A stretch of 36,494 nucleotides of DNA. Origin: Bacteroidales bacterium (GTDB lineage: Bacteria > Bacteroidota > Bacteroidia > Bacteroidales > FEN-979). Below the pieces are notes generated by a model. The model had not been told where the DNA came from and made no database searches. It saw nothing but the letters and a program-made list of their open reading frames with translations. The stretch spans positions 1 through 36,494 of the forward strand of contig JANXZO010000068.1 in assembly GCA_025355465.1 (NCBI GenBank), in the 5' to 3' direction. Shown here in pieces: positions 12,725-29,490 of the stretch (its first letter is position 1; each line of letters opens with the position of its first letter). The translations under genes were made by a program, and so were the position numbers.

Positions 12725-13483
12725 TTATTTCTTGACCTGTTTTGCGTCTTCCATAATTACTTCATAGGAATAACCGGCGCCAAAATCCTTGTTCAGCGTA
12801 ATTACTCCCTGGAAAACCACAACATCACCAACCTTTACAGAATCGAGCGTGGTCACGGTAAGGTCAAAATTACCGCCATCCTTTGTGCCATCCTGGAGAT
12901 GTGCCCAGTTCTTACCCATGATACTACCGGCAAAACGCACAACTTCGCCACGGATATTTACCTGTTTACCAGCATATTTGTTGCGCTTGGCGAAAAGTTC
13001 ACCCAGGGTGATGCCACCTTCGGCACGCGGTACGGAAATTCCGGCTTTCTCCGCAGTAGGCTGTTTACCGGTCATCGCACCGGCAGGCACCTGTCCACCA
13101 GCCGGCGAAGCCATGGTGTTCTCCTGCGGTGCACCAGGTTGTTCCTCAAGGGTTATGGGCTTATCGGTAAAATCCTGAATAAAAAGGATCGTCCTGAAAT
13201 TCCTTTTAAGCTCCTTGCTCCAGAAATCTTTCATCGGACTGCCTATCGACCAGTAATAGGTGTCTCCTTGTTTAACCTCTGCCTTGCTTATGGCAATCCA
13301 GTAATCCCTTCCTTCAGAAGATACTCTTACGTAGGTGTAACTGCTGGTCTGGATCACCTCCTCTGCTGTTACCTGGTGTGCAAGCGGGGAGAGATTCTCA
13401 GCAACTTTACTTTTTGACTGACAAGCTGTAATCAGGGCAATAAGCCCAAAAACTGCAAATATTATTTTGATCTGTGATTTCAT
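12725..13483 (-). CDS. OB-fold lipoprotein of unknown function
   Basis: A 252-residue lipoprotein with an N-terminal signal and lipobox ITAC. The first half (about residues 35-115) has SYTYVRVSSEGRDYWIA and GDTYYW, as in small SH3- or GW-like exported domains. A Pro/Ala/Gly-rich linker (115-150) leads to a C-terminal OB-fold-like domain (from about 158, with GKQVNIRGEVVRF and NWAHLQDGT, typical of exported nucleotide-binding-like OB folds). It is divergent from the multiheme operon across a 193-base region with an inverted repeat, so it may share its control. Ligand unknown; a heme or assembly role is only a guess from position. Confidence 0.75.
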   Translation of the reverse strand: MKSQIKIIFAVFGLIALITACQSKSKVAENLSPLAHQVTAEEVIQTSSYTYVRVSSEGRDYWIAISKAEVKQGDTYYWSIGSPMKDFWSKELKRNFRTILFIQDFTDKPITLEEQPGAPQENTMASPAGGQVPAGAMTGKQPTAEKAGISVPRAEGGITLGELFAKRNKYAGKQVNIRGEVVRFAGSIMGKNWAHLQDGTKDGGNFDLTVTTLDSVKVGDVVVFQGVITLNKDFGAGYSYEVIMEDAKQVKK

Positions 13484-13676: not shown

Positions 13677-14543
13677 ATGTCTGTCACACATCGTATTTAT
13701 ATCGGTCTTCTGGCGTTGGTTGTTTTATTTTCGTTGTTTCTCCTCTGGCACTCGGGTTATTCCTACTACAATACGAGCATTGAGGGACGTTTTTTCCACC
13801 CCGATCATGCTACGTTGAAGCCAAGCGGAGGCTGGGGACATGGTTATGGAATCATCGGTTCGGTACTCATTTTGCTGGGTGTTGTCAGCTACATTGTGCG
13901 CAAAAGGGTACGGTCACTTTCACGCATGGGGGCATTGAAGTACTGGCTTGAATTCCACATTTTTTTATGTACCCTCGGTCCGATCCTGGTACTTTTTCAT
14001 ACCTCCTTCAAGTTCGGTGGACTAGTTGCCATCAGTTTCTGGAGTATGGTTGCTGTTTTTCTCAGCGGGGTGATAGGCAGGTTTATCTATATACAGATAC
14101 CCAGGACTATTGAAGGAAGAGAGTTAAGCTTAAGCGAAGTACAGGAGATGAAGTCCAATATCGGCGCCATCCTGAGTCAATCCTATCACCTCGATGAGGA
14201 GAGCTATAATATTATTGTAGATTCCATAAAAAAGCGGGTTGAATTATATACATCCAATAGTATTTTGCGTTATTTTAAGAAATATTTCAACGACAGGGCA
14301 ACCATACGTAAGGTAAAAAGAGTCCTTAAGCACAATAAACTCTCAAAACGCGAATACAGGCAGGTAGTTACGCTCGTTAAAAATGACATTTCGTTAAACC
14401 GGCGAATTGAACGGCTCACCACCATGCAGAACCTATTTAAGTATTGGCATGTTGCCCATCTGCCATTTGCTTTCGTTATGCTTATCATCATGATCATTCA
14501 CGTTATTGTTACGATCACGTTTGGTTATCGCTGGATATTCTAA
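13677..14543 (+). CDS. Integral-membrane di-heme cytochrome b-like protein
   Basis: A 288-residue membrane protein with about five hydrophobic segments: near residues 7-26, 56-75, 90-108, 115-138 and 257-285. A charged soluble region fills about 140-255. Two helices each hold a pair of histidines 14 residues apart: His94/His108, and His261/His275. This is the spacing that holds two stacked b hemes in four-helix cytochrome b proteins. I infer a transmembrane electron carrier linking the flavoprotein that follows to the periplasmic multiheme cytochromes. No named family is assigned with certainty. It is first in the operon, 2 bases before the next ATG. Confidence 0.8.
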   Translation: MSVTHRIYIGLLALVVLFSLFLLWHSGYSYYNTSIEGRFFHPDHATLKPSGGWGHGYGIIGSVLILLGVVSYIVRKRVRSLSRMGALKYWLEFHIFLCTLGPILVLFHTSFKFGGLVAISFWSMVAVFLSGVIGRFIYIQIPRTIEGRELSLSEVQEMKSNIGAILSQSYHLDEESYNIIVDSIKKRVELYTSNSILRYFKKYFNDRATIRKVKRVLKHNKLSKREYRQVVTLVKNDISLNRRIERLTTMQNLFKYWHVAHLPFAFVMLIIMIIHVIVTITFGYRWIF

Positions 14544-14545
14544 TT

Positions 14546-15886
14546 ATGGAATCACTTATTGAAAGCATCCTTGTTTACTCACTGGCGCTTCTGCTTTGCC
14601 TGGGTGTGATTATATTTTATCTGCGCGGACAGCGGAAGAAGTCAAAATTGGTGGAGCAAAAGATCCTCAAAGCGAAGGAAGAGGGTATGTATGAGCCCGT
14701 GTCACTTCACCCGGTGGTGAATGAAGGCAGTTGCATACAAACAGGAGCCTGCATTGTTGCCTGCCCCGAAAAAGACATCCTCGGAATCAGAAACGGAAAA
14801 GCTACCACCATCAACGCCTCGCATTGTGTTGGCCATGGCGCCTGCTTTCATGCATGTCCTACCCAGGCCATTACCTTATGCATTGGAACTGAAAAACGGG
14901 GAGTAGAACTCCCTCATATCAGCCAGGAATTCGAGACCAGTGTTCCGGGAATTTATATTGCCGGTGAGTTGGGAGGCATGGGACTGATTAAAAATGCAGT
15001 CGAACAGGGTCGCCAGGCTGTGGAAAACATTGTCAAGAACAGCTCCAGACAACATTCTGCAGATTACGACCTGATCATTGTCGGAGCAGGTCCCGCCGGA
15101 ATTTCAGGATCGCTGACAGCGAAAAAGAACAACCTGAAATGTATTACCCTTGAACAGGATACCCTCGGTGGAACAGTATTTACATTTCCCCGTTCGAAGA
15201 TCGTCATGACCTCCGCCATGCTTCTTCCCCTTCACGGAAAAGTCAAACTCTTCGAGACAAGCAAATCGGAGCTTCTCGAATTGTGGCAAACTGTTATTGC
15301 CAAACACAATATCCCGATCAAGGAGAATACCAAGGTAGAGGCCATCGTTGCCGAGAATGGCATTTTCAGGCTTGATACACTTACAGGAGAACATTTTACC
15401 GCACGAAACGTTTTGCTGGCCATCGGACGCAGGGGAACGCCGAGAAAGCTGGGAGTTCCCGGCGAAACCCTGGAAAAGGTAGCTTATCGTCTGCTTGAAC
15501 CTGAAATTATCAGCGGGAAGAATATCATTGTTGTTGGCGGTGGCGATTCTGCCATTGAATCAGCCCTTCTGCTCGCGGAACAAAACAAGGTGATCCTTTC
15601 CTACCGAAGCGAAGCGTTCAGCCGTATTAAGCCAAAGAACAACGTAAAGATCAAGGAAGCTGCTGAAAACGGACTTGTTGACCTGCGATTCAACAGCAAC
15701 CTTGTTTTAATTGAAAAGGATGAGATAACCATGACGTACAACGGGAAGGAAGGAGTATCAGAAAAGATACCCAACGACCTGGTATTCATATTTGCCGGCG
15801 GTGAATTACCCACGCAGTTCCTGATGAAAGCAGGACTGCAGATCACCAAAAAATTCGGAGATGCAATATTGAAGCATAAAAAATGA
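14546..15886 (+). CDS. Membrane-anchored Fe-S/FAD/NAD(P) oxidoreductase, apparently circularly permuted
   Basis: A 446-residue protein. An N-terminal membrane helix (about 5-26) precedes a two-cluster ferredoxin-like segment: Cys63, Cys69, Cys73-Pro and Cys94, Cys100, Cys104-Pro, with Thr66 and His97 where the second cysteines normally sit. Then comes TSVPGIYIAGE (131-141), like the C-terminal FAD-binding part of thioredoxin reductases. Only after it come the N-terminal-type dinucleotide motif IIVGAGPAGISGS (177-189) and a second, NAD(P)-type GGGDSAIES. There is no redox CxxC. Expected role: passing electrons between NAD(P)H, FAD, Fe-S centres and the b-type protein. The longer frame from 14444 is rejected because it overlaps the previous gene. 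Confidence 0.88.
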   Translation: MESLIESILVYSLALLLCLGVIIFYLRGQRKKSKLVEQKILKAKEEGMYEPVSLHPVVNEGSCIQTGACIVACPEKDILGIRNGKATTINASHCVGHGACFHACPTQAITLCIGTEKRGVELPHISQEFETSVPGIYIAGELGGMGLIKNAVEQGRQAVENIVKNSSRQHSADYDLIIVGAGPAGISGSLTAKKNNLKCITLEQDTLGGTVFTFPRSKIVMTSAMLLPLHGKVKLFETSKSELLELWQTVIAKHNIPIKENTKVEAIVAENGIFRLDTLTGEHFTARNVLLAIGRRGTPRKLGVPGETLEKVAYRLLEPEIISGKNIIVVGGGDSAIESALLLAEQNKVILSYRSEAFSRIKPKNNVKIKEAAENGLVDLRFNSNLVLIEKDEITMTYNGKEGVSEKIPNDLVFIFAGGELPTQFLMKAGLQITKKFGDAILKHKK

Positions 15887-17472
15887 GTCTAAAAAACACT
15901 GGCTTACTAATCGGACTGTGCCTGATCATCCTCTCTCCTGCTGTTGCACAGATTTCTCCGGGCGAACTGTCTGCTGCCCATGCACACCTTGAAGGCATGT
16001 CGAACTGCACCAAGTGCCATTCACTCGGTGCAAAGATCGCCAACGAAAAGTGCCTTGCGTGCCACACCGAAATAAAGGCACATGTGGATCAAAAAACGGG
16101 CTACCATGCCTCGCCCGAAGTCAGGGGGAAAAGTTGCATTACGTGTCACAGCGACCACCATGGCCGGAATTTCCAGCTTGTTCGTTTTGCCAAAGAGAAA
16201 TTCGATCATGGCATTACCGGATTTAAACTATCCGGCGAACATGCAAAAAAACAATGTGCTGAATGCCACAAGCCGGCATTTATCAGCAATCCCGCCATCA
16301 AGAAAAAGAAGTTCACCTACCTGGGTCTCAATCCTGAATGTTTAAAATGCCATGAAGATTATCACCAGAAAACACTTGCCCAAAAATGTTCAAACTGCCA
16401 CGACTTTGATGCATTTAAGCCTGCTACACTATTTAAACATGAGACCACAAAATTCCAGCTTACCGGCAAACATGCTACAGTTCCCTGTCTTTCCTGCCAC
16501 AAAGTTTCCCTGTTAAACGGTAAAAAATTCCAGGAGTTTGCCGGAATAAAATTCCAAAGCTGTTCCAACTGCCATGCCGACCCGCACCACAATCAATTCG
16601 GACCCAATTGCAGCAGTTGTCACACAGGAGAGTCTTTTCATGCGGTAAAAGGCATTGCCAACTTCGACCATTCAAAAACCAAATTCCTGTTGGAGGATAA
16701 ACATAAGACGCTGGCCTGTGTTCAATGCCACAAGGCAAACCTTACCGATCCTGTAAAGCACGACAAATGTACCGACTGTCACAAAGATTATCATGACGGA
16801 CAGTTTATGAAAGATGGTGTGGTAGAAAACTGCAATGCTTGTCACAGCACAAAAGGATTTAAAGAGACTTCGTACACAATTGAAAAGCACAACAGCGGAA
16901 AATTTCCGCTGTTGGGATCGCATCTAGCCACTCCATGTATCACCTGTCACAAGAAACAGGAAAAATGGAAATTCAGGGAGATCGGCATCCGTTGTATAGA
17001 TTGTCACGAGAACATTCACAAGCAATTCATCAACGAGAAATATTATCCGGATTACAGTTGCCAGAGCTGTCATAACAACGAAACCTGGAAATCCGTCAGT
17101 TTCGACCATTCGAAAACAGCCTTTATCCTCACGGGTCCGCATGAGAAACAGACCTGCCGTACCTGTCACTTCAGGAAAGATGCATCCGGGCAGGAGATTC
17201 AGAAATTTACCGATATGGCGGCCAATTGTACCAGCTGCCACACAGACATTCATGCCAAGCAGTTTGAAGTTACAGGAGTAACCAACTGCCTGCGTTGTCA
17301 TGCTTCGAACACATGGAAAATTGTAACGTTTGATCACAATAAAACTGCCTTCAAACTTGATGGCAAACATGAGAAAGTTGCCTGTATCAAGTGCCACAAA
17401 CCGGTTATCAAAGATCAAAAAACATTTGTACTGTATAAAACAAACAAATTGAGATGCGAAAACTGTCATTGA
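15883..17472 (+). CDS. 20-heme c-type cytochrome
   Basis: Exported protein of 529 residues with a signal peptide (cleavage near AVAQ, residue 22). I count 20 CxxCH motifs, the last at the very C-terminus (CENCH then stop). The sequence repeats FDHSKTxFxLTGKH-type segments followed by CxxCHK and CxxCHxDxH, a pattern of large periplasmic multiheme cytochromes. Extra histidines in each unit can be distal ligands, so most hemes are probably bis-His. It starts in an ATGA overlap with the flavoprotein stop. Probable role: a periplasmic relay between the inner-membrane complex and the outer-membrane proteins encoded next. Confidence 0.93.
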   Translation: MSLKNTGLLIGLCLIILSPAVAQISPGELSAAHAHLEGMSNCTKCHSLGAKIANEKCLACHTEIKAHVDQKTGYHASPEVRGKSCITCHSDHHGRNFQLVRFAKEKFDHGITGFKLSGEHAKKQCAECHKPAFISNPAIKKKKFTYLGLNPECLKCHEDYHQKTLAQKCSNCHDFDAFKPATLFKHETTKFQLTGKHATVPCLSCHKVSLLNGKKFQEFAGIKFQSCSNCHADPHHNQFGPNCSSCHTGESFHAVKGIANFDHSKTKFLLEDKHKTLACVQCHKANLTDPVKHDKCTDCHKDYHDGQFMKDGVVENCNACHSTKGFKETSYTIEKHNSGKFPLLGSHLATPCITCHKKQEKWKFREIGIRCIDCHENIHKQFINEKYYPDYSCQSCHNNETWKSVSFDHSKTAFILTGPHEKQTCRTCHFRKDASGQEIQKFTDMAANCTSCHTDIHAKQFEVTGVTNCLRCHASNTWKIVTFDHNKTAFKLDGKHEKVACIKCHKPVIKDQKTFVLYKTNKLRCENCH

Positions 17473-19841
17473 TCATCGTGCTAGCATTTGTTTTCATGTC
17501 GGTTGCAATGGTCTCCCCGACCCCGTCGCCCCATGGTGACGATTTCAAAATCAGCTGCGACGTTTGCCACAGTTCAAAAGGGTGGAAACTTGACAAGGAG
17601 ATATACTCCTTCGACCACAATACAACAGCTTTGCCCCTGACCGGGCAACATAAGCAGGTCGATTGCAAAAGCTGCCATCCCACCCTGGTATTCAAGGATG
17701 CAAAGACGAGTTGTGTAGATTGTCATACCGATATGCATAACCAGACTGTAGGCCCGGATTGTTCGCGTTGCCACACCACCAATTCGTGGATCGTAGAGAA
17801 CACTACGGAAATGCATCAGCGAAGCAGATTTCCGCTCACAGGTCCACACTATGCAACCGATTGCGGAAATTGCCACAAATCGGCCTCTCTGCTGCGTTTT
17901 GAGCCCCTCGGAGTGGAATGTTACGATTGTCATTCTGCCAATTACAACTCGACGACACAACCTAACCACGTTCAGGGTAACTACTCCAAGAACTGCATCG
18001 AATGTCATTCCCTGACCAGCATGACCTGGAGCAGTTCGAACATTGACCATTCTTTCTTCCCGTTAACCGGAGGACATGCCATCGGTGACTGTTATAAATG
18101 TCATACCAACGGAACCTTCAATGGTCTTTCGAAGGAATGCGTTACATGCCATCTTACCACGTATAACAATACCAACAACCCTAACCACGCCAATGCCGGT
18201 TTCTCAACAAACTGCGCGCAGTGCCATACCACGGCCGCCGGTTGGTCGCCTGCCACATTTGACCACTCCAAATTCCCACTAACGCTTGGTCATGCCGTGA
18301 GTCCGTGCACAAAATGTCACATAAACGGCACATATCCCAACACCCCGACCGCCTGTGTTGCCTGTCATCAGACAACCTACAACGCCACTACCAATCCGAA
18401 CCATACCACTGCACAGTTCTCAACAGATTGCCAGCAATGCCACACCACCAATCCGGGGTGGACACCAGCCAACTATGATCACAACATTTTCCCGCTCACC
18501 AGCGGACATGCCGTGAGCCCCTGCACCAAATGCCATCCAAACAATATCTACACCAATACTCCCAACCAATGCGTGGGATGCCACCTGACAAATTATAACG
18601 CCACTACCAACCCAAATCATATTACCATCAACCTGCCAACAACCTGCGCAGATTGCCATACAACAAACCCCGGATGGAAACCCGCCCAGTTCGCAATTCA
18701 CGATGCACAGTTCTTCCCGATCTATTCAGGAAAACACAACAACACCTGGACCCAGTGCACTGAGTGTCATCCCAATACCAGCAACTACGCACAATTCACG
18801 TGCATCGACTGTCACGACCACAATAAAACTGACATGGACAACAAGCATAACGGTGTTGGCGGTTATGCCTATAACAGTCCGGCCTGCTACAGTTGTCACC
18901 CGACTGGCAGCGGCCAGGGTGGGTTTAACCACAACAACGGGTTCCCGCTCACGGGGGCACACCTGACCACCCCATGCAGCAGTTGTCATATAAATGGATA
19001 TGCAGGGACCTCCACCGTTTGTTCAGATTGCCATATCAGCAACTACAACCAAACGACCAATCCGAACCATACGGCCATCGGCATTGCCAACACCTGCAAC
19101 ACCTGCCATACGACAAACCCGGGATGGAAACCGGCAACGTTCCCGACACATGGTAACTATTACCAGCTCACCGGGGCCCATGCCACCATCGCAAACAACT
19201 GTGTTGCCTGTCACAACGGGAACTACAGTCAAACACCGAACACCTGCGTGGGATGTCATCAGACCAACTACAACCAGACTACAAACCCGGTTCACACGGC
19301 TGCAGGTATTGCCACCACTTGTGCCAACTGTCATACAACCAACCCGGGCTGGTCACCTGCTACATATCCGGTTCACAATAACCTTATCGGTTACCACCTT
19401 ACCCTTGCCAGCAATTGCAATGCTTGTCACAGTTCGGGTTATACCAACACACCCACGCTGTGTATTGGCTGTCATCAAAACGATTATAACAACACCAATA
19501 ATCCGCCGCACGCTTCTGCACAATTTCCTACAACCTGCGCTGATTGTCACACGCAGAGTGTATGGGTACCTTCTACCTTTAATCACGACGGACAATATTT
19601 CCCGATTTATTCAGGAAAACATAATGGAAAATGGACATTATGTTCCGATTGTCATACGAATTCATCCAATTACTCCGTTTTCAGTTGCATCGACTGTCAT
19701 ACGCATAGTCAGGCAACAACAAACAACCAACACAGCGGCGTTCCGGGATATTCCTACAACAGTCTTGCCTGCTACCAATGTCACCCGACAGGAAATGCCG
19801 GAAAAATGATAAAGATCATCGACCCTCAAAGAAAGGAATAA
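17454..19841 (+). CDS. 31-heme c-type cytochrome built from three-heme modules
   Basis: An exported 795-residue protein with a signal peptide (MRKLSLIIVLAFVFMSVAMVS). I count 31 CxxCH motifs. Residues 35-185 form a seven-heme head also present in the 13-heme protein at 21503. After it come three modules of about 72 residues with three hemes each, a distinct three-heme unit (417-492), three more modules, and the distinct unit again (712-782), followed by a basic tail. Module consensus: FPLTxGHAVxPCTKCH, then CVxCHxTxYN, then CxxCHTTNPGW. It is rich in Asn, Thr, Gly and Pro, as in surface proteins. Its start overlaps the 20-heme gene by 19 bases. Likely a long-range outer-surface electron conductor; localisation is inferred. 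Confidence 0.93.
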   Translation: MRKLSLIIVLAFVFMSVAMVSPTPSPHGDDFKISCDVCHSSKGWKLDKEIYSFDHNTTALPLTGQHKQVDCKSCHPTLVFKDAKTSCVDCHTDMHNQTVGPDCSRCHTTNSWIVENTTEMHQRSRFPLTGPHYATDCGNCHKSASLLRFEPLGVECYDCHSANYNSTTQPNHVQGNYSKNCIECHSLTSMTWSSSNIDHSFFPLTGGHAIGDCYKCHTNGTFNGLSKECVTCHLTTYNNTNNPNHANAGFSTNCAQCHTTAAGWSPATFDHSKFPLTLGHAVSPCTKCHINGTYPNTPTACVACHQTTYNATTNPNHTTAQFSTDCQQCHTTNPGWTPANYDHNIFPLTSGHAVSPCTKCHPNNIYTNTPNQCVGCHLTNYNATTNPNHITINLPTTCADCHTTNPGWKPAQFAIHDAQFFPIYSGKHNNTWTQCTECHPNTSNYAQFTCIDCHDHNKTDMDNKHNGVGGYAYNSPACYSCHPTGSGQGGFNHNNGFPLTGAHLTTPCSSCHINGYAGTSTVCSDCHISNYNQTTNPNHTAIGIANTCNTCHTTNPGWKPATFPTHGNYYQLTGAHATIANNCVACHNGNYSQTPNTCVGCHQTNYNQTTNPVHTAAGIATTCANCHTTNPGWSPATYPVHNNLIGYHLTLASNCNACHSSGYTNTPTLCIGCHQNDYNNTNNPPHASAQFPTTCADCHTQSVWVPSTFNHDGQYFPIYSGKHNGKWTLCSDCHTNSSNYSVFSCIDCHTHSQATTNNQHSGVPGYSYNSLACYQCHPTGNAGKMIKIIDPQRKE
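18048..19799 (+). repeat. Tandem three-heme coding modules
   Basis: Modules of about 215 bases lie at roughly 18048-18263, 18264-18479, 18480-18701, 18930-19148, 19149-19373 and 19374-19586. Variant terminal units lie at about 18702-18929 and 19587-19799. The order (three modules plus terminal unit, twice) points to duplication of a 12-heme block. Boundaries are mine and are set on the FPLTxGH segment. Confidence 0.8.
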
Positions 19842-19852
19842 ACAGAAAAATA

Positions 19853-21481
19853 ATGAGATATGTAATTCTGATCACCTTGCTTGTTTGTTCCAGTTTTCAA
19901 CTAACTGGTCAAACACCCGGAAAACCTGTTGAAGGAGCTGTCTCTTATATCTCTTCCCAGAGTATATACGTGAAATTCCCTTCAACAGCGGGCATCGCTA
20001 TCGGAGACACACTTTATACTTCGCGTAACAACAGAAGAACGCCTGTGCTGAAGGTGCGCGAACTCTCTTCGACCTCCTGTGTTTGCGATCCTATTGGCCA
20101 GCACGATATAAAAATCGCTGACAAACTCCTCGCTTTTCCAAAACAAACGCCGGAAGCAGTGAAGTCAGAGAGCGTACCGGTGGTGCCAATTTCTCCACCT
20201 GTGGTGATTCCCACCGACACGGCGGCAACTTCTGCCATTAAGCCTGCGATAAAATCGAGACAACAAATCACCGGGTATATCTCCGCTTCTTCTTATTCCG
20301 GCTTTTCCAACACACCTGCGGCGAACACTCAACGCATGCAGTACACCCTATCCTTTATCGGAAACAACTTCGGAAACTCTGGCGCCTCTGCAGAGGCTTA
20401 CATCTCTTTTTACCACAATCCTTCCGAATGGGGAGAGGTTCAGAAAGATGTGTTCAACGCCCTCAAAATTTACAGTCTTAATGTAAGCTACGAGTTCAGC
20501 AAGAACTTTAAACTTCTTCTCGGGCGGAAGATCAACCCGCTGATTTCCAATGCAGGGGCGATCGACGGACTTCAATTCGAAATGAAATTCAAACCCATAA
20601 CAATTGGTATTATCGGGGGATCGAGGCCAGATTACCGCGACTACAGTTTTAATTTCAACCTGCTGCAATATGGGGCATACATAGCGCATGAGTTAAAGAA
20701 TAAGAACGGTCCGATGCAAACAACGCTTGCATTCATCCAGCAAAATAATTCCGGCAAGACCGACCGGCGATTTGCCTACCTGCAGCACTCCAACTCTCTG
20801 ATCCCGAATCTTAACTTCTTTGGGTCGGTGGAAGTAGACCTTTACCAAAATGTAATGGACAAGACAGACAGCACTTACAAATCGAGCAGTTTGCCCAAAC
20901 TCTCAAACCTTTACCTGTCGCTGCGGTGGAGGATCATCAGGCAACTCTCTGTTTCGCTTTCTTACAGTGCAAGAACGAACGTGATCTACTACGAGTCGTA
21001 CAAAACATACATCGACCAGCTCATCCAGATGGAGACCACCCAGGGTTACCTTTTCTCTGTGAATTTACGTCCTGTAAACAATCTCACAATCGGTACCACC
21101 ATCGGATACCGTTTCCAGCCCAGTGATCCCAAGCCTTCGAAAAACCTGAATGCTTATGTAACCTACAGCCAGATTCCGGTGCTGGACATATCCGCAACAC
21201 TTACCGCAACGCTTCTCGAAACAAGTTACGTGAGTGGCCAGGTCTACGGATTCGGCATATCGCGCGACCTGTTCAAAGGAAAACTATACGGAGCGCTGAA
21301 CTACCGCTATACAAACTACAAATTTGCAGGCTCGGCCGGATCGCAGGTACAGAACGTGGGTGAAATCAACCTATCCTGGCGGATCATGCGAAAACTCTCA
21401 TGTACCGTTTATTTTGAAGGCACTTTTGAAAAACAGTTCCAGTATCAGCGGATCTATGTGCAGATCACACAACGGTTTTAG
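19853..21481 (+). CDS. Outer-membrane beta-barrel protein of the multiheme locus
   Basis: A 542-residue exported protein with signal peptide MRYVILITLLVCSSFQLTGQ. A small N-terminal domain (about 23-90, VSYISSQSIYVKF to VCDPIG) and a Pro/Val-rich linker (about 110-135) lead to a barrel of some 380 residues with regular amphipathic strands. The barrel ends in an aromatic residue (YVQITQRF), the usual barrel-assembly signal. No heme motifs. It lies between two multiheme cytochrome genes, the arrangement of porin-cytochrome conduits such as MtrAB, but I see no direct similarity to MtrB or PioB. The start at 19853 is chosen for the signal peptide; an earlier in-frame ATG overlaps the upstream gene. 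Confidence 0.85.
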   Translation: MRYVILITLLVCSSFQLTGQTPGKPVEGAVSYISSQSIYVKFPSTAGIAIGDTLYTSRNNRRTPVLKVRELSSTSCVCDPIGQHDIKIADKLLAFPKQTPEAVKSESVPVVPISPPVVIPTDTAATSAIKPAIKSRQQITGYISASSYSGFSNTPAANTQRMQYTLSFIGNNFGNSGASAEAYISFYHNPSEWGEVQKDVFNALKIYSLNVSYEFSKNFKLLLGRKINPLISNAGAIDGLQFEMKFKPITIGIIGGSRPDYRDYSFNFNLLQYGAYIAHELKNKNGPMQTTLAFIQQNNSGKTDRRFAYLQHSNSLIPNLNFFGSVEVDLYQNVMDKTDSTYKSSSLPKLSNLYLSLRWRIIRQLSVSLSYSARTNVIYYESYKTYIDQLIQMETTQGYLFSVNLRPVNNLTIGTTIGYRFQPSDPKPSKNLNAYVTYSQIPVLDISATLTATLLETSYVSGQVYGFGISRDLFKGKLYGALNYRYTNYKFAGSAGSQVQNVGEINLSWRIMRKLSCTVYFEGTFEKQFQYQRIYVQITQRF

Positions 21482-21502
21482 TTAATCCCTGATTCATTCC
21501 GT

Positions 21503-22573
21503 ATGCAGAAAATTTTGTTAGCGGTTATGCTTGCGGTACTGTTCACGTCGGTCATTTCAACCACTCCCACACCCTCGCCCCACGGGGAGAATTTTAAGAT
21601 CAGCTGCGGAGTTTGCCATAGTGCCACAAGCTGGAAACTGGACCCGAAGGTCTATTCATTTGACCACGATAAAACCATCCTTCCATTAACCGGCCAGCAC
21701 AAGCAACTTGGTTGCAGGGCATGCCATCCTTCCCTGGTTTTCAGCGATGCCGGGAACACTTGTATCGACTGCCACACCGACATACACGAGCAGACCACCG
21801 GGGCGGATTGCGGTCGATGCCACACCACCAATTCATGGATCGTTGAAAACACAACGAAGCTACACCAGCAAAGCAGATTTCCGCTTGTCGGAGCGCACTA
21901 TACCGCCGATTGCGGCAGTTGCCATAAGTCGGCCAACAAGCTTCGTTTTGAACCACTGGGAATTGAGTGCTACGACTGCCATCAGCAAAATTACCTTTCG
22001 GCAATAAAGCCCAACCATGTGCTTGGAAAATATTCGAAAAACTGCATTGAATGCCATTACTTCTCTTCATTCTCGTGGATTGGCGCCGGATTCAATCACT
22101 CCTTCTTCCCCCTTACCGGCGGGCACGATCTCCCCGACTGCAGCCGTTGTCATACGAATGGTACTTTCCAGGGACTCTCTCCCGAGTGTGTATCCTGCCA
22201 CTTGAACAACTACAATTCCACTACCAATCCAAACCACGTTACGTCGGGTTTCCCCACTAATTGTTCGCTTTGTCACACCCTTGCTCCCGGATGGAAGCCA
22301 GCCTCCTACACCTCACATGATGCACAGTACTTCCCAATTTATTCAGGCAAGCACCAGGGTACATGGAGCAGTTGCAGTGTTTGCCATACCAACCCTGCCA
22401 ATTTTGCCCAGTTTACCTGCATCGACTGCCATGAACACAACAAGTCGAGCATGGATGGAAAACATGGTGATGTGGGTGGTTATGTGTATTCCAGCCAAGC
22501 GTGCTATCAATGTCATCCCACCGGACAAGGAGGAGGAAAAATGTTTAAAAACATCCGCAGCGGGTATCGTTAA
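21503..22573 (+). CDS. 13-heme c-type cytochrome, short paralogue of the 31-heme protein
   Basis: An exported 356-residue protein with a signal peptide (MQKILLAVMLAVLFTSVIS). I count 13 CxxCH motifs. The seven-heme head (TPSPHGENFKISC onward) aligns residue by residue with that of the 31-heme protein. One three-heme module (FPLTGGHDLPDCSRCH and following) and one terminal unit (YSGKH to CYQCHPTG) complete it. It ends with the same kind of basic tail (GKMFKNI) as the large protein. It begins 21 bases after the barrel gene. It may be the barrel-associated or capping form of the conduit. No clear terminator follows. Confidence 0.93.
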   Translation: MQKILLAVMLAVLFTSVISTTPTPSPHGENFKISCGVCHSATSWKLDPKVYSFDHDKTILPLTGQHKQLGCRACHPSLVFSDAGNTCIDCHTDIHEQTTGADCGRCHTTNSWIVENTTKLHQQSRFPLVGAHYTADCGSCHKSANKLRFEPLGIECYDCHQQNYLSAIKPNHVLGKYSKNCIECHYFSSFSWIGAGFNHSFFPLTGGHDLPDCSRCHTNGTFQGLSPECVSCHLNNYNSTTNPNHVTSGFPTNCSLCHTLAPGWKPASYTSHDAQYFPIYSGKHQGTWSSCSVCHTNPANFAQFTCIDCHEHNKSSMDGKHGDVGGYVYSSQACYQCHPTGQGGGKMFKNIRSGYR

Positions 22574-22620
22574 CAAGTGAGCAACAGGACAATAAAAAAC
22601 CGCCGGACAAACTAAACAAG

Positions 22621-22642
22621 AAATTGTATCTTTGACATAGTT
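22621..22642 (+). CRISPR. Possible partial CRISPR repeat at the cas9 deletion junction
   Basis: The sequence ATTGTATCTTTGACATAG resembles the 3' half of long (46-47 base) type II-C repeats of Bacteroidota as I remember them, which contain a TATCTTTG box. Its first six bases also match the 3' end of the repeat half predicted by the tracrRNA anti-repeat (ending in ATTGTA). It sits where the cas9 homology ends. No second copy is present, so this is only a candidate relic. Confidence 0.35.
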
Positions 22643-22982
22643 TAGGCTCGCAATCATCTTTGAATTGTCCAAAATGAGAATCGAAGTCAATATATTGAGA
22701 ATAGTGTTCGGGTAGAAACCCAATCGTATTGAGGACTAAATGCAGTCTTGAGCGCCTTAATAAATGCCGTTCGCGGAGTCTCCTGACATTTCGGAATTCT
22801 GTCCGCTCCTTAGTTTTTGACACTGAAATTCCCTTTTCAAAGTCACTCAGTGTTCCTTGGTCCATAGGAATGATCCTGGATCCTAGTCCAATGATTTTAC
22901 CCTGTTTTTCGGCGAAGTTTTGATCTAGTAATGCCCATCCGATTGAGTTTGTGCCAAGGTCCAGTCCAAGTATTTTTTTCAT
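22638..22982 (-). pseudogene. cas9: N-terminal fragment of type II-C cas9
   Basis: About 115 residues match the start of Bacteroidota Cas9: the RuvC-I motif ILGLDLGTNSIGWALL with catalytic Asp8, SRIIPMDQ, LSDFEKG, and the Arg-rich bridge helix (FRNVRRLRERHLLRRSRL, about 63-80). After that come GFLPEHYSQ and FGQFKDDCEPKL. Homology then stops; the frame runs on through unrelated bases to 22545, inside the 13-heme gene. REC, HNH, RuvC-II/III and the PAM-interacting domain (over 1,000 residues) are missing, so it cannot be an active nuclease. It is divergent from the tracrRNA. I see no frame break inside the fragment, suggesting a fairly recent deletion or retention for another reason. Confidence 0.9.
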
Positions 22983-23010
22983 ATAGAGAAGGGTTTTAGC
23001 GATTTCATGT

Positions 23011-23018
23011 TATCTTTG
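23011..23018 (+). promoter_or_regulatory. Promoter -7 box of the tracrRNA
   Basis: TATCTTTG precedes the anti-repeat by a few bases, placing the transcript start at about 23023-23026. Confidence 0.6.
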
Positions 23019-23022
23019 CAGT

Positions 23023-23098
23023 ACAATCTAAAGCAATTCACAATAAGGATTATTCCGTTGTGAAAACATTTAAGGCGGCTATCAAGTCGCCTTTTTTT
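23023..23098 (+). ncRNA. tracrRNA of a type II-C CRISPR-Cas system
   Basis: An anti-repeat (ATCTAAAGCAATTCACAA) is followed by a TTCACAA/TTGTGAA stem closing on a loop with TAAGG. Then come a short AAAAC linker and a terminal AAGGCG/CGCCTT hairpin with a T-run that serves as terminator. The order and sequence match type II-C tracrRNAs, including the CACAATAAGG core. It would pair with repeats beginning like TTGTGAATTGCTTTAGAT. It lies about 40 bases from the cas9 fragment, divergently, and looks intact, although no array is present in the window. Confidence 0.83.
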
Positions 23099-23430
23099 TA
23101 TTTATAAAATTGTAAATGATTCAATTTTAGATGATTATGATGACGGATAGCACGCCGTCATTGCTGTCTATCTATTCTTATTTCGAATGCAAGTTACAAA
23201 ACATGTATTTGCAATCAATATATGACAACATTATTTTTCCATATCATTGGAAAAATCTTAAGGCATTGACTTTGCCATACTATATTAATCGGTTTATTCA
23301 CCTTGTTAATTATCAATACCAATTGGGGTTACTTATATTTATCAGAGAAGGTGAAACCAGAAGGTGGGTTCGAATGATTTCTGATAGGACCAAGAATATC
23401 TCGTCCCCTAAAACGTCCCCTGAAAAATCA
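23099..23430. other. AT-rich geneless stretch between tracrRNA and tRNA-Ser
   Basis: About 330 bases, more AT-rich than the flanks. The open frame that crosses it has no recognisable protein features and ends inside the antisense of the tRNA, so I do not call a gene. Near its right end a short imperfect direct repeat (CGTCCCCTAAAA then CGTCCCCTGAAAA, 23402-23426) lies by the tRNA terminator. It may be residue of a deleted CRISPR or mobile segment. Confidence 0.4.
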
Positions 23431-23465
23431 AAAATCCCCGAAACAATAGTGTTTACGGGGATTTT
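23431..23465 (-). terminator. Terminator downstream of tRNA-Ser(UGA)
   Basis: AAAATCCCCG pairs with CGGGGATTTT, with an inner AAACA/TGTTT pairing. On the minus strand the stem is followed by a short T-run. It lies 14 bases past the tRNA 3' end. Confidence 0.75.
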
Positions 23466-23478
23466 CATTGATGGTCAG

Positions 23479-23563
23479 CGGAGAGGGAGGGATTCGAACC
23501 CCCGGAGGCTTGCACCTCAACGGTTTTCAAGACCGCCGCAATCGACCACTCTGCCACCTCTCC
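23479..23563 (-). tRNA. tRNA-Ser (anticodon UGA)
   Basis: Acceptor stem GGAGAGG paired with CCTCTCC, anticodon stem GCGGT/ACCGT around CTTGAAA giving TGA, a long variable arm, and GGTTCGAATCC. The bases after the discriminator are CTG, so CCA is not encoded, unlike in the tRNA-Ser at 11384. Confidence 0.95.
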
Positions 23564-23601
23564 ATGAATGATTCCGATGCGTATTTTTCTTCAACAGCGT
23601 G

Positions 23602-23632
23602 CAAAAGTACATAAAAAAGGAAACCCAACAAA
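23602..23632 (-). promoter_or_regulatory. Promoter of tRNA-Ser(UGA)
   Basis: On the minus strand TTTG (23632-23629) is followed after 19 bases by TACTTTTG (23609-23602), a full match to the Bacteroidota consensus. Confidence 0.65.
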
Positions 23633-23694
23633 ACAAACACAACCCGGCATGTAAAATCGTTTACCTGATAAATGGCGGCGATCGCCGATTTAAC

Positions 23695-23725
23695 TTGCAA
23701 TTAACGGCCATCTCTGTTACCTTTG
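23695..23725 (+). promoter_or_regulatory. Promoter of the GWxTD gene
   Basis: TTG at 23695-23697 and TACCTTTG at 23718-23725 are 20 bases apart. The ATG at 23764 lies 38 bases downstream, whereas the longer open frame starts upstream of the promoter. Confidence 0.65.
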
Positions 23726-23763
23726 TATTATTCAATATTGGAATTTACGACAATCTAATAATT

Positions 23764-25239
23764 ATGAAAAAGTTTGTTTTCATCCTGATATTCACGATCT
23801 TGTGTAGTGGCTCCGGGCTTAACGCCAGAAATCTATGGGCGTTTCTCACCTACGCTACCTTCAATTCACCGGAAGGTCCTTATGTGGAGACATACCTCTC
23901 TGTTGCAGCAAACTCAGTAAAGTTTGTTAAAAAGGAGAATGGAAAATTTCAGGCCTCCGTTAACATTATCATGACGTTTACAAAAGACGGAGAAATCAAA
24001 GCCTTTAAAAAGTATGATTTTTTCAGCCCGGAAATTGAAGATACCACCAAGTTGAATTTTAACTATATCGACCAGCAGCGTTTTTCTGTTCCAAACGGCA
24101 CTTATGATTTTGAAATCAAGCTGGCCGATAACAACAAAAGTGTCGCTGCTGTTCCCTATTCTCAGCAGATAGCTGTTGATTTTCCGACGGAAAAACCCTC
24201 CATTTCAGGAATTGAACTGGTGAAGTCCTATACCAAAACCGCCACACCCGGCGATCTGACAAAAAGTGGCAATGACCTTGTTCCCAATGTTTTTTCATTC
24301 TACCCTGCAACCGATCCAAAGCTTGTCTTTTACTGCGAAATATACAATGCCGAAAAATTTTTTGGGAAAGACCAGAAATACATTCTCAGTTACGGCATCG
24401 AGGCCTTTGAAAACAATATGAAACTGGCGGAGTACACTAAAATCAAGAAAGAGACCGCCAAAGCGATCACTGTGGTATTGTCGGAGCTGAGCGTCGAAAA
24501 ACTGGCCACAGGAAATTACAACCTCTTTGTTGAGATGAGGAACCAGCAAAACGAAGTGGTAGCGGGAAAAAAGTTGTTCTTTCAACGTGCGAACCCTGCC
24601 GCTCAGATGGCCATTGCCGACGTGCAAACTGCAGAGATCGGGAATACTTTCGTTGAAAAAATTACCAGCATCGACAGTTTGAAGGAGTATATCAACAGCA
24701 CCTATCCAATTGCCGCCGGACTTGAGAAATCGTTTATCCGCGGGTCAGTCAAAAAATCGGACCTGAAAACGCTGCAACAATTTTTCTTCACTTTCTGGCA
24801 GGAACGTGATCCCAATAACCCCGAAAAGAAATGGCTTGCTTATCACCAGGAGGTAATGAAGGTGCAGGCTAACTTCGGAACTCCGGTCAAACGCGGCTAC
24901 CAGACCGATCGCGGGCGGGTTTTCCTCCTCTATGGTCCGCCAAACTCTCGGGAGGGTCATTACAACGAACCCAGCTCTTACCCCTATGAGATCTGGCAAT
25001 ATTATACCCTCAACAACACCCAGCGAAATAAGAAATTCGTCTTTTATTCACAGGACATGGTCACGAGCGATTTCACCCTGCTGCATTCAGACGCCATCGG
25101 GGAGGTGTACGAACCTCGCTGGCAGGGAATCCTGAGAAGCAGAAGTTATGCGCCGCTGGATCTTGGCGACACCCAGATCATCAATGCCTGGGGAGAAGTT
25201 GACAGCGACGCATGGACACTACCGACAAGTAACCTTTAG
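23764..25239 (+). CDS. GWxTD domain protein
   Basis: An exported protein of 491 residues with a signal peptide (MKKFVFILIFTILCSGSGLNA). The first 340 residues are beta-rich and have the usual ATFNSPEGPYVETYLSV start of Bacteroidota members. The C-terminal GWxTD domain (about 350-480) shows FWQERDPNNPEKKW, QANFG and TDRGRVFLLYGPP. The signature itself reads GYQTD, with Tyr for Trp. Function unknown; the family is common in Bacteroidota and Acidobacteriota, and a role in envelope protein interactions is only suspected. The start is set by the promoter and signal peptide. Confidence 0.87.
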   Translation: MKKFVFILIFTILCSGSGLNARNLWAFLTYATFNSPEGPYVETYLSVAANSVKFVKKENGKFQASVNIIMTFTKDGEIKAFKKYDFFSPEIEDTTKLNFNYIDQQRFSVPNGTYDFEIKLADNNKSVAAVPYSQQIAVDFPTEKPSISGIELVKSYTKTATPGDLTKSGNDLVPNVFSFYPATDPKLVFYCEIYNAEKFFGKDQKYILSYGIEAFENNMKLAEYTKIKKETAKAITVVLSELSVEKLATGNYNLFVEMRNQQNEVVAGKKLFFQRANPAAQMAIADVQTAEIGNTFVEKITSIDSLKEYINSTYPIAAGLEKSFIRGSVKKSDLKTLQQFFFTFWQERDPNNPEKKWLAYHQEVMKVQANFGTPVKRGYQTDRGRVFLLYGPPNSREGHYNEPSSYPYEIWQYYTLNNTQRNKKFVFYSQDMVTSDFTLLHSDAIGEVYEPRWQGILRSRSYAPLDLGDTQIINAWGEVDSDAWTLPTSNL

Positions 25240-26940: not shown

Positions 26941-26949
26941 CATTGATAC

Positions 26950-27032
26950 TTCTCCAAAGGGGGTGCCTTAAAATAAGGGCTGAGAATATACCCCATGAAC
27001 CTGATCCGGGTAATGCCGGCGTAGGAAAAAGA
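26950..27032 (+). promoter_or_regulatory. TPP riboswitch (THI box)
   Basis: All conserved parts of the thiamine pyrophosphate aptamer are present in order: GGGGGTGCC, GGGCTGAGAATATACCCC, GAACCTGATCCGGGTAATG and CCGGCGTAGGAA. The receptor ATG follows within about 8 bases and no terminator hairpin intervenes. Control is therefore probably of translation start: TPP would close the aptamer and reduce receptor synthesis. Confidence 0.96.
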
Positions 27033-27039
27033 AAATACC

Positions 27040-29490
27040 ATGAAGAGACAGAATATGAGTCGCGTAATGCGGGGAATGGTTGTCTGCGTGCTGACCGCCA
27101 TAGCAACCATTGGCCTGCAAAACCTGAACGCCCAGGTAACCCTTAGCGGCACGATAACCGATAAACAATCCGTGATGTCATTAAGCGGGGCCAATATCGT
27201 GATTGAAAAAACCACAAAGTCGGCGGTTAGCGGAAGTTCCGGAGAATACAGCCTGAAGCATGTGAACCGTGGATTAATCAGGCTTAAAGTCTCCTATATC
27301 GGATATAAAACCGCGGAGATCAGCCTGGTCTTACAGCATGATTCAATTGTGAATGTAGCGCTTGAACCGGCTCCGGTGCTCGGAGAAGAGGTTAACATCC
27401 AGGCAACCAGGGCCCAGCGAAATTATCCGACCACCTATGCAAGCATCAGCAGTAAGGAGATAAAGGAGGTGAATCTCGGAAAAGACATGCCTTATATTCT
27501 CCAGTCAAGTCCCTCGGTAGTGGTTACCTCCGATGCCGGTAACGGGATAGGATACACAGGTATCAGCATACGCGGAACCGATCTGACACGGATCAATGTT
27601 ACGATCAACGGGGTGCCGCTCAATGATGCCGAATCGCAGGGCGTATGGTTCGTGGATTTGCCCGACCTCGCCTCATCCACCGAAAACATTCAGATTCAGC
27701 GCGGTGTCGGCACCTCCACCAACGGTTCGGGAGCTTTTGGAGCTTCCATCAACCTGTTAACTTCCACACTCAACCAGGATCCCTACGGAGAGCTCGATAT
27801 TTCTGGCGGCTCCTACAATACCCTGAAAACCACCCTGAGATTTGGCACTGGTCTGATGGCAAACCGGTTTTGTGTTGATGGGCGCCTCTCCTACCTCCAT
27901 AGCGACGGATATATCGACCGTGCCTTTTCAAACCTCAAATCCTATTTTCTCTCGGCAGGGTACTTCGGAAAGAGTACAACGGTGAAACTGATCAACTTTT
28001 CCGGATTTGAGCGAACATACCAGTCGTGGTATGGGGTTCCCGGAGATTCACTGGCAACAAACCGCACCTATAATCCGGCGGGTCAGTACACCGACAAGTC
28101 AGGAAAGGTGGTCTACTATGATAACCAGACTGACAACTATGAGCAGGATCATTACCAGCTCATCTTTTCGCAGCGACTGATGGCGAACTGGAACCTGAGC
28201 GCTGCACTTCACTACACCAAAGGGAAGGGATATTATGAAAACTATGAGCAGAATCAACTATTTTCAGCATATGGGCTCAGCAATGTAATCCTGGGCACCG
28301 ATACCATAACTTCCACCAACCTGGTGAACCGTAAAATGATGGACAACGATTTTTACGGAGTCACATTTTCCACGAATCTCTCTGTGCAAGAGAAGCTGAA
28401 GATAACAGCAGGCGGAGCATGGAGCAGTTACAACGGACATCATTTCGGCAAGGTGATCTGGGCCGAATTTGCCTCCGATGGCGACAATAACAGAAATTAT
28501 TATTACAACCAGGGAGTCAAGAAAGACTTCAATATTTACACAAAGATCTCTTACCAGTTATTGAAGCAACTCTCACTTTTTGCCGACCTCCAGTACCGGT
28601 TTGTCAGTTACAAAATGGACGGCAAACTGGATGATCAGCGTGCACTCGATCAGAATCACAGGTTTAACTTTTTCAATCCAAAGGCCGGCCTGTACTTCAC
28701 CTTTTCCGGCCACCACAGTCTGTACTACTCGTTCGGTGTGGCCAACCGCGAACCCAGCCGTAATAATTACAAAGATGCCGACCCGCAGCATACACCTACA
28801 TTTGAGACACTTTACGACAATGAATTGGGGTACAACTTCACACTGCCGAATTTTACGCTGAATGCAAACTTTTACTACATGCGGTACCGCGATCAGCTGG
28901 TGTTAACCGGCAAAATCAACAATGTGGGAGAAGCCATCATGGTGAATGTGCCGCATAGTTATCGGCTCGGACTGGAAATTTCTGCCGGGATCAAGCTGTT
29001 TCGGAAATTAAAATGGGACGTGAATGCAACGTTCAGCCGCAACAGTATCTTAAATTTTACCGAATACGTTGACAAATACGATTCGGTCTGGAATATCGAG
29101 GGACAGCTTGCCACCTCTTTAGGCGAGACGAACATTGCTTTTTCGCCGCAATTAATTGTCGGCAGCATGCTGACCTGCAAACCGGTTGAGAACCTCAGCA
29201 TATCCCTTAACACCAGATATATAGGCAGGCAATACATGGATAATACCAACAGCCGCGAAAGATCACTTTCCGGATATTTCGTCAATGGAATTTCGGTCGG
29301 ATATGCGATTAAAACCGGCCTGTTCAATGAGGTCTGCCTGAGTGTTGCAGTCAACAACCTGTTCAATGTAAAATATTCGTCGAACGGATGGGTGTATCAA
29401 TATTATTTCGATAACAGGCATTATGAATCGAACGGTTTTTACCCACAGGCGCTGTTGAATTTTCTGGTTGGATTGACCGTGAAAATCTGA
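27040..29490 (+). CDS. TonB-dependent receptor, probably for thiamine or a precursor
   Basis: Outer-membrane active transporter of 816 residues with a signal peptide (to about residue 30, NLNAQ). It then has a carboxypeptidase-like domain (about 32-115, VTLSGTITDKQ onward) and a plug domain (about 125-255, with NVTINGVPLNDAESQGVW, IQIQRGVGTSTNGSGAFG). A 22-strand-type barrel ends in LLNFLVGLTVKI. The TPP riboswitch directly upstream is the reason for assigning thiamine-type substrates; such riboswitch-linked receptors are known in Bacteroidota. No inner-membrane thiamine transporter follows in the window. Confidence 0.93.
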   Translation: MKRQNMSRVMRGMVVCVLTAIATIGLQNLNAQVTLSGTITDKQSVMSLSGANIVIEKTTKSAVSGSSGEYSLKHVNRGLIRLKVSYIGYKTAEISLVLQHDSIVNVALEPAPVLGEEVNIQATRAQRNYPTTYASISSKEIKEVNLGKDMPYILQSSPSVVVTSDAGNGIGYTGISIRGTDLTRINVTINGVPLNDAESQGVWFVDLPDLASSTENIQIQRGVGTSTNGSGAFGASINLLTSTLNQDPYGELDISGGSYNTLKTTLRFGTGLMANRFCVDGRLSYLHSDGYIDRAFSNLKSYFLSAGYFGKSTTVKLINFSGFERTYQSWYGVPGDSLATNRTYNPAGQYTDKSGKVVYYDNQTDNYEQDHYQLIFSQRLMANWNLSAALHYTKGKGYYENYEQNQLFSAYGLSNVILGTDTITSTNLVNRKMMDNDFYGVTFSTNLSVQEKLKITAGGAWSSYNGHHFGKVIWAEFASDGDNNRNYYYNQGVKKDFNIYTKISYQLLKQLSLFADLQYRFVSYKMDGKLDDQRALDQNHRFNFFNPKAGLYFTFSGHHSLYYSFGVANREPSRNNYKDADPQHTPTFETLYDNELGYNFTLPNFTLNANFYYMRYRDQLVLTGKINNVGEAIMVNVPHSYRLGLEISAGIKLFRKLKWDVNATFSRNSILNFTEYVDKYDSVWNIEGQLATSLGETNIAFSPQLIVGSMLTCKPVENLSISLNTRYIGRQYMDNTNSRERSLSGYFVNGISVGYAIKTGLFNEVCLSVAVNNLFNVKYSSNGWVYQYYFDNRHYESNGFYPQALLNFLVGLTVKI

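Follow-up and report, generated by a model that had tools for sequence, protein, structure and literature searches.

A predicted PCC3-type multiheme conduit operon with an added flavoprotein gene in Bacteroidota

Which route could electrons take through the products of a single gene cluster that carries 64 c-type heme motifs? The question is raised by positions 13677-22573 of a 36,494-nucleotide stretch (contig JANXZO010000068.1, assembly GCA_025355465.1) from a Bacteroidales bacterium of the FEN-979 lineage; the whole stretch is called the window below. Six genes follow each other head to tail on the + strand. They are named here B (di-heme b protein), F (Fe-S/FAD/NAD(P) protein), P, X1 and X2 (cytochromes) and O (barrel). 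ORF stands for open reading frame.

B, 13677..14543, + strand: 288 amino acids, di-heme b-type inner-membrane protein, like the PCC3 inner-membrane protein by motif match
F, 14546..15886, + strand: 446 amino acids, Fe-S/FAD/NAD(P) oxidoreductase with an N-terminal anchor (mechanical ORF start 14444)
P, 15883..17472, + strand: 529 amino acids, 20 CxxCH, signal peptide by eye, presumed periplasmic wire
X1, 17454..19841, + strand: 795 amino acids, 31 CxxCH, presumed extracellular cytochrome
O, 19853..21481, + strand: 542 amino acids, predicted outer-membrane beta-barrel with a terminal Phe (mechanical ORF start 19778)
X2, 21503..22573, + strand: 356 amino acids, 13 CxxCH, paralogue of X1

We consider it moderately probable that these products form a trans-envelope conduit of the porin-cytochrome class PCC3, extended by a cytoplasmic entry module, in which electrons would run from NAD(P)H or ferredoxin through F, B, P/O and X1/X2 to the outside of the cell. 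NAD(P)H, or reduced ferredoxin, would reduce the FAD and Fe-S centres of F at the cytoplasmic face, and F would deliver the electrons to the two b hemes of B, by which they would cross the inner membrane. P, a 20-heme cytochrome of fixed length, would take them over from B, bridge the periplasm and dock in the 22-strand barrel of O. Outside, X1 or X2 would hand them to an extracellular acceptor such as Fe(III)/Mn(IV) minerals, humics or a partner cell. Quinol could also enter at B. The initial annotation of this DNA had proposed that the path is complete, from NAD(P)H or quinol up to the cell surface. A trans-envelope conduit is still the best reading, supported by the conserved gene set, the PCC3 signature of B and the predicted barrel, and the completeness of the path is what we infer beyond them.

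The arrangement is that of the single-strand, six-gene operon initially described, with gaps or overlaps of 2-21 bases between neighbours (successively +2, -4, -19, +11 and +21). O is taken to start at the ATG at 19853, which opens a signal-peptide-like stretch and aligns with the starts of relatives; signal peptides of the operon proteins were assessed by eye, without a predictor. The count of 64 c-type heme motifs stands as well. P, X1 and X2 hold 20, 31 and 13 CxxCH, against means of 0.28, 0.37 and 0.14 (each below 0.4) and maxima of 3, 4 and 2 in 2000 residue shuffles of each cytochrome. A single cysteine of the 129 in the three proteins lies outside CxxCH. CxxCK is absent from all three, and their 26, 33 and 14 non-motif histidines are enough for bis-His ligation of each predicted heme.

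The operon is widespread but patchy in Bacteroidota. Of 395 genomes drawn from the phylum, 48 have a match to B at E 0.001 and 40 one below 1e-60 (its own genome included in both), and O is present in 34 of 100 related genomes, again counting its own. A scan of GTDB contigs with B gave 437 relatives. The best 80 of these loci were taken; their titles are almost all of metagenome-assembled or uncultured organisms and name Bacteroidales, Bacteroidetes, Marinilabiliales, Saprospiraceae, Lentimicrobium, Labilibaculum and a few others. From 113 pooled loci, 8 without B and 20 with an already counted B were excluded, leaving 85 non-redundant loci. The same gene order, which the initial annotation had proposed to seek in other Bacteroidota, is found there: the full series B-F-P-X-O, X being the X1/X2-type cytochrome, occurs in 59 of the 85. 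In a further 25 the series breaks off within 600 bases of where the fetched sequence stops, which is a contig end in 24 and the flank limit in L137, and the last one, L062, has F and P in one ORF. F comes after B in 84 of the 85 loci, the fused one included, and the remaining locus ends 198 bases past B. The conserved unit comprises five genes. All six genes initially described as a unit are present in the window, and the sixth, X2, is a paralogue of X1. The fused ORF of L062 (10523-13405, - strand) encodes 960 amino acids, in which a hydrophobic stretch in place of the signal peptide joins F to P; it could be a true fusion or result from misassembly.

Among 20 distant Bacteroidota loci the order is B-F-P-X-O in 8, F stands at the far end in 11 (mostly B-P-X-O-F), and one locus stops before the expected F. 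A barrel was called in 17 of the 20; the three far-end-F loci with no called barrel include one that is also without X. In 9 of these distant loci (L181, L183-L186, L190, L191, L196 and L197) a TPR protein of about 200 amino acids, recognised by eye, adjoins B and is perhaps a helper of cytochrome c maturation.

The operon also has a cultured carrier. Plasmid pEMTOL02 of Emticicia oligotrophica DSM 17448 has the order CcsA-B-F-P(23)-X(40)-O-GW, with heme numbers in brackets and the 1028-amino-acid CcsA immediately 5' of B. A tblastn search of plasmids with B returned 15 records, Emticicia at 52.6% over 99% and 14 weak ones at 22-31%; searches of plasmids with P and O gave matches in Emticicia only. 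At four inspected weak loci (Alteromonas, Methylophaga, Sphingobium and Acetobacter) the B match lies beside a protein with a 2Fe-2S or cyclic-nucleotide domain. Three of the four have an annotated cytochrome, and at none of them is a PCC3-like set of a barrel and two cytochromes annotated directly beside the B match.

B gives the clearest link to PCC3. Published systems are quoted here and below from excerpts of the papers cited, and statements about them hold for those excerpts. The PCC3 inner-membrane protein has about 300 residues and five helices, with SGxxG in the fourth helix and a WX3HX13H motif in each of the third and fifth (PMC5566968). B, with 288 residues, resembles it in having W90xxxH94-X13-H108, W257xxxH261-X13-H275 and, between the two pairs, S130G131xxG134 (SGVIG, 130-134). 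The two HX13H pairs (94/108 and 261/275) agree with the di-heme b membrane protein first proposed, and their four histidines are invariant across 13 aligned sequences. Both WX3HX13H motifs and SGxxG are kept in 117 of 123 homologous ORFs, a set that includes repeats between sets and was scored irrespective of whether SGxxG sits between the pairs; the other 6 have one strict WX3HX13H and SGxxG. By hydropathy only, Kyte-Doolittle peaks at 7-25, 56-74, about 93-111, 115-133 and 262-280 fit five helices, the third and fourth peaks being merged.

F would provide the cytoplasmic entry. Its single hydrophobic helix is N-terminal (residues 8-26) and followed by basic residues, so that the bulk of the protein should be cytoplasmic. 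Two ferredoxin motifs follow, C63-T66-C69-C73P and C94-H97-C100-C104P, with the second cysteine replaced in each (T66, H97) and the remaining cysteines invariant across 13 aligned sequences. Residues 174-435 form an FAD/NAD(P) domain like those of thioredoxin reductase (TrxR) and ferredoxin-NADP reductase (FNR). The solved structures closest to F in sequence include 7a76 (labelled as a thioredoxin reductase, E 6e-24), 7a7b (YpdA/Bdr, E 4e-23) and the ferredoxin-NADP reductase 3ab1 (E 7e-15). No CxxC pair is seen in the TrxR-like domain, which makes electron transfer between NAD(P)H and the Fe-S centres more likely for F than action on disulfides. Reductases of this type normally accept electrons from NAD(P)H.

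A side observation concerns the fold of F, where the FAD motif that is C-terminal in the TrxR fold seems to precede the Rossmann domain. When the segment VPGIYIAGELGGMG...AVEN is moved to the C-terminus, the PF07992 match extends from 1-253 to 1-291 of 291 and the PF13738 match from 1-282 to 1-305 of 305, for gains of 1.6 and 2.4 bits, respectively, with no shuffled control. The segment searched alone gives no match, and a circular permutation of F is only hinted at.

The cytochromes fall into two kinds, P presumably periplasmic and X1 and X2 presumably extracellular. P has 20 heme motifs in 62 and 23 in 12 of the 79 ORFs of relatives (74 of 79 with either number); of the 20 distant loci, 18 have 20 and the other 2 have 23. 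The five off-count ORFs belong to L063 (15), L080 (6 and 10), L103 (17) and L067 (19); those of L063 and L080 look like pieces of split genes and that of L103 stops 5 bases short of a contig end. X is variable, with 12 to 61 motifs across 73 ORFs and, in the distant loci, 64 in one case and 10 in several. A fixed P and a variable X would suit a part of set length that spans the periplasm and an outer part free to vary. X1 consists of a 7-heme head and eight three-heme repeats of about 72 residues each, two of which are "YSGKH" caps near residues 425 and 720. X2 has the same head followed by two three-heme units, one repeat and one cap, and is 66% identical to X1 across its first 261 residues. 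A build of 7+3n predicts heme counts of 1 modulo 3, which 46 of the 73 ORFs show (binomial p 2e-7, related sequences being treated as independent); 27 depart from it, with 21 counts at 0 and 6 at 2 modulo 3. Composition separates the two kinds sharply, as expected if they reside in different compartments: Lys makes up 12.6% of P and 3.2% of X1, which is composed of 13.5% Thr, 11.2% Asn, 7.4% Ser, 6.6% Gly and 6.4% Ala. Neither P nor X1 has a phmmer match in the PDB at E 0.001.

A bolder version of the proposal, which we regard as possible but doubtful, is that many Bacteroidota have a self-contained wire from cytosol to surface. F, by oxidising NAD(P)H or ferredoxin, would bypass the quinone pool, P would act as a ruler fixed by its hemes, and X would be sized in three-heme steps for reach or charge storage.

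The outer-membrane barrel first proposed for O is borne out by prediction. The AlphaFold model (mean predicted local distance difference test, pLDDT, 76.6) has 22 long strands, counted from the DSSP line, in residues 138-541, and the protein ends in Phe. A small beta domain (26-94) and a low-confidence linker precede the barrel. VIA-align places TonB-receptor barrels first (e.g., 6bpn, Z 18.6, root-mean-square deviation 5.4, 346 aligned residues), and with Foldseek the matches are general barrels (TonB-dependent receptors, ushers and Occ porins). The structural matches listed by the two programs include no MtrB chain, an absence that is not decisive.

Several points weigh against an outward conduit of this kind. 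Its distribution is patchy. X has, by eye, no lipobox, no long C-terminal extension and no obvious sorting domain, which leaves its route to the surface unexplained. The AlphaFold model of P is of low confidence (mean pLDDT 55.4, predicted template-modelling score 0.26). The barrel of MtrB has 26 strands against 22 in the prediction for O, which would be narrower. Electrons may, moreover, flow inward, as modelled for iron oxidisers. In the same conduit, Fe(II), a mineral or a partner cell would then be the donor, and the electrons would pass X, O and P to reach B. From there they would either join the quinone pool and serve to reduce O2 or nitrite, or be driven by proton motive force through F to form NAD(P)H. 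Sinks are available, as the host genome encodes NrfA and three heme-copper oxidase-family genes; with these the host need not depend on extracellular acceptors. Emticicia is an aerobe and carries the operon too. The usual draw of F-type reductases on NAD(P)H speaks against inward flow. In the model published for PCC3 itself, the quinone pool receives the electrons of an extracellular donor (PMC5566968), but both PCC3 clusters of Sideroxydans lithotrophicus ES-1 were lower with Fe(II) than with thiosulfate (PMC8788666), a result that counts against either direction. PCC3, proposed in 2017, was still called functionally untested in 2025 (PMC12442390). On this evidence we hold the inward version to be rather improbable.

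It is unlikely that the cytochromes are all confined to the periplasm, where they would store electrons as a "capacitor" or carry them to periplasmic reductases such as NrfA, with O as an unrelated or only structural porin. X without a lipobox or a visible surface-sorting signal and the NrfA of the host would agree with this, as does the capacitor role speculated for many-heme proteins of Saprospiraceae (PMC11495043). The barrel gene, however, follows X in the 59 complete loci and recurs in most of the distant ones, and the contrast in composition between X and P is that expected of different compartments. A dedicated respiratory reductase for nitrite, tetrathionate, selenite or the like is very unlikely: P has weak, partial matches to octaheme tetrathionate reductase (TIGR04315, E 0.0015) and ExtN/ExtO (E ~3e-6), all far below cut-offs, but no NCBIfam model reaches its cut-off for P, X1 or X2, a heme number as variable as that of X would be odd for an enzyme, and the lack of CxxCK together with enough histidines for both sides of every heme leaves no obvious open heme site. 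Identity with a nitrite or tetrathionate reductase was rejected on these grounds.

We retain the outward PCC3-type conduit as the likeliest reading. A recurrent neighbour of the operon lies upstream in the window:

W, 12725..13483, - strand: GW-domain lipoprotein, divergent from the operon, with a lipobox-like ...ALITAC by eye

W is found in the fetched stretch of 27 of the 85 B loci, in others at the 3' end of the operon. On the other side, tail to tail with X2, lies a cas9 remnant of 145 amino acids (window 22545-22982, - strand) that matches the first part of Cas9 only (TIGR01865, E 9e-15, residues 4-93; bridge helix PF16593). The host genome has no other TIGR01865 match, and positions 22400-24200 hold no direct repeats of at least 20 bases. 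Further downstream a thiamine pyrophosphate (TPP) riboswitch (68 bits, window 26949-27044, + strand) lies directly 5' of an ORF of 816 amino acids at 27040, whose product is perhaps a thiamine-related outer-membrane receptor. A second multiheme cluster of the host (G000:C6:55189-65590; L215, L216) comprises 14-heme, 4-heme and 11-heme cytochromes, a 5-heme lipoprotein-like cytochrome, an NHL propeller, a response regulator and, in barrel position, a barrel-sized protein of 655 amino acids with no Pfam match at E 0.01; it is perhaps a second outer-membrane conduit. Together with NrfA and the oxidase-family genes, this cluster agrees with a host that respires in versatile ways and has more than one outlet for electrons.

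A major share in polymer degradation in anoxic lakes, sediments and sludge falls to Bacteroidota, which are mostly regarded as fermenting or aerobic. If the proposal is true, part of their polymer breakdown could be directly linked to minerals, humics, electrodes or partner cells. In this large group, most of which is uncultured, the operon makes it possible to test for electron exchange with minerals or other cells. The operon supplies B, F, P and O as marker genes and a cultured carrier with a plasmid-borne copy. The natural length series of one presumed surface cytochrome makes the question of wire length or capacitor testable, and the operon may help to settle what PCC3 does.

The initial annotation had recognised no described conduit in this operon. 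This holds for MtrCAB and OmbB-OmaB-OmcB, which share with it the working principle of a barrel with periplasmic and surface cytochromes. Both identities were rejected by heme number, 10/10 in MtrCAB and 8/12 in OmbB-OmaB-OmcB against 20/31 here, and the DmsE-family decaheme model TIGR03508 gives P 45.7 bits against a cut-off of 192.2. It does not hold for PCC3, whose description (PMC5566968) the operon fits in the clearly tested features. PCC4 has an inner-membrane protein with the same motif layout, and its Subgroup II adjoins an Fe-S protein gene, but this class has no extracellular cytochrome and its Fe-S protein is of pfam13247, unlike the ferredoxin/TrxR-like F (PMC5566968).

Within the phylum, novel porin-cytochrome clusters were reported from Bacteroidetes metagenome-assembled genomes of the humic Trout Bog (He et al. 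2019, PMC6344600). They are possibly the same operon, although the excerpt gives no gene-by-gene account to compare. Secreted Saprospiraceae proteins (PMC11495043) likewise have very high CxxCH counts, in a survey made at the protein level whose excerpt discusses no operon, flavoprotein or barrel. The conduit principle and the presence of such genes in the phylum are thus not new. In the literature searched, as far as excerpts go, no report of the five-part operon in Bacteroidota was found, an earlier mention in supplements being possible, and no paper with both "PCC3" and "flavoprotein" was among the matches listed. The operon as a five-gene unit including F, the extent of its distribution and the modular build of its presumed outer cytochrome appear to be undescribed.

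The components given for PCC3 are a barrel, the inner-membrane protein and two cytochromes, one extracellular (median 34 hemes) and one periplasmic (median 21), with examples in Leptothrix and in ES-1 (Slit_0867-0870) (He et al. 2017, PMC5566968). Four components and no flavoprotein are also described in the excerpts of PMC8788666, PMC10734462 and PMC12442390. The operon differs by its fifth gene, F, not named there as a part of PCC3, by its occurrence in Bacteroidota rather than Alpha-, Beta- and Gammaproteobacteria, by 20 or 23 hemes in P against 21, 24 or 27 in Gallionellaceae (PMC10734462), and by about 22 modelled barrel strands against up to 42 predicted segments. Besides the motifs of B, it shares the barrel in the cluster, a presumed outer cytochrome of variable heme number and internal repeats, rich in small residues in PCC3 and in an X rich in Thr, Ser, Ala and Gly. 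Its heme numbers of 20 (P) and 31 (X1) are close to the medians, and its 26.5 (P), 25.6 (X1) and 27.4 (X2) residues per heme all lie within the 22-39 of PCC3 cytochromes (PMC5566968). Set beside PCC3 by published description rather than by sequences, and with its function predicted, the operon is best described as a Bacteroidota variant of the PCC3-type conduits.

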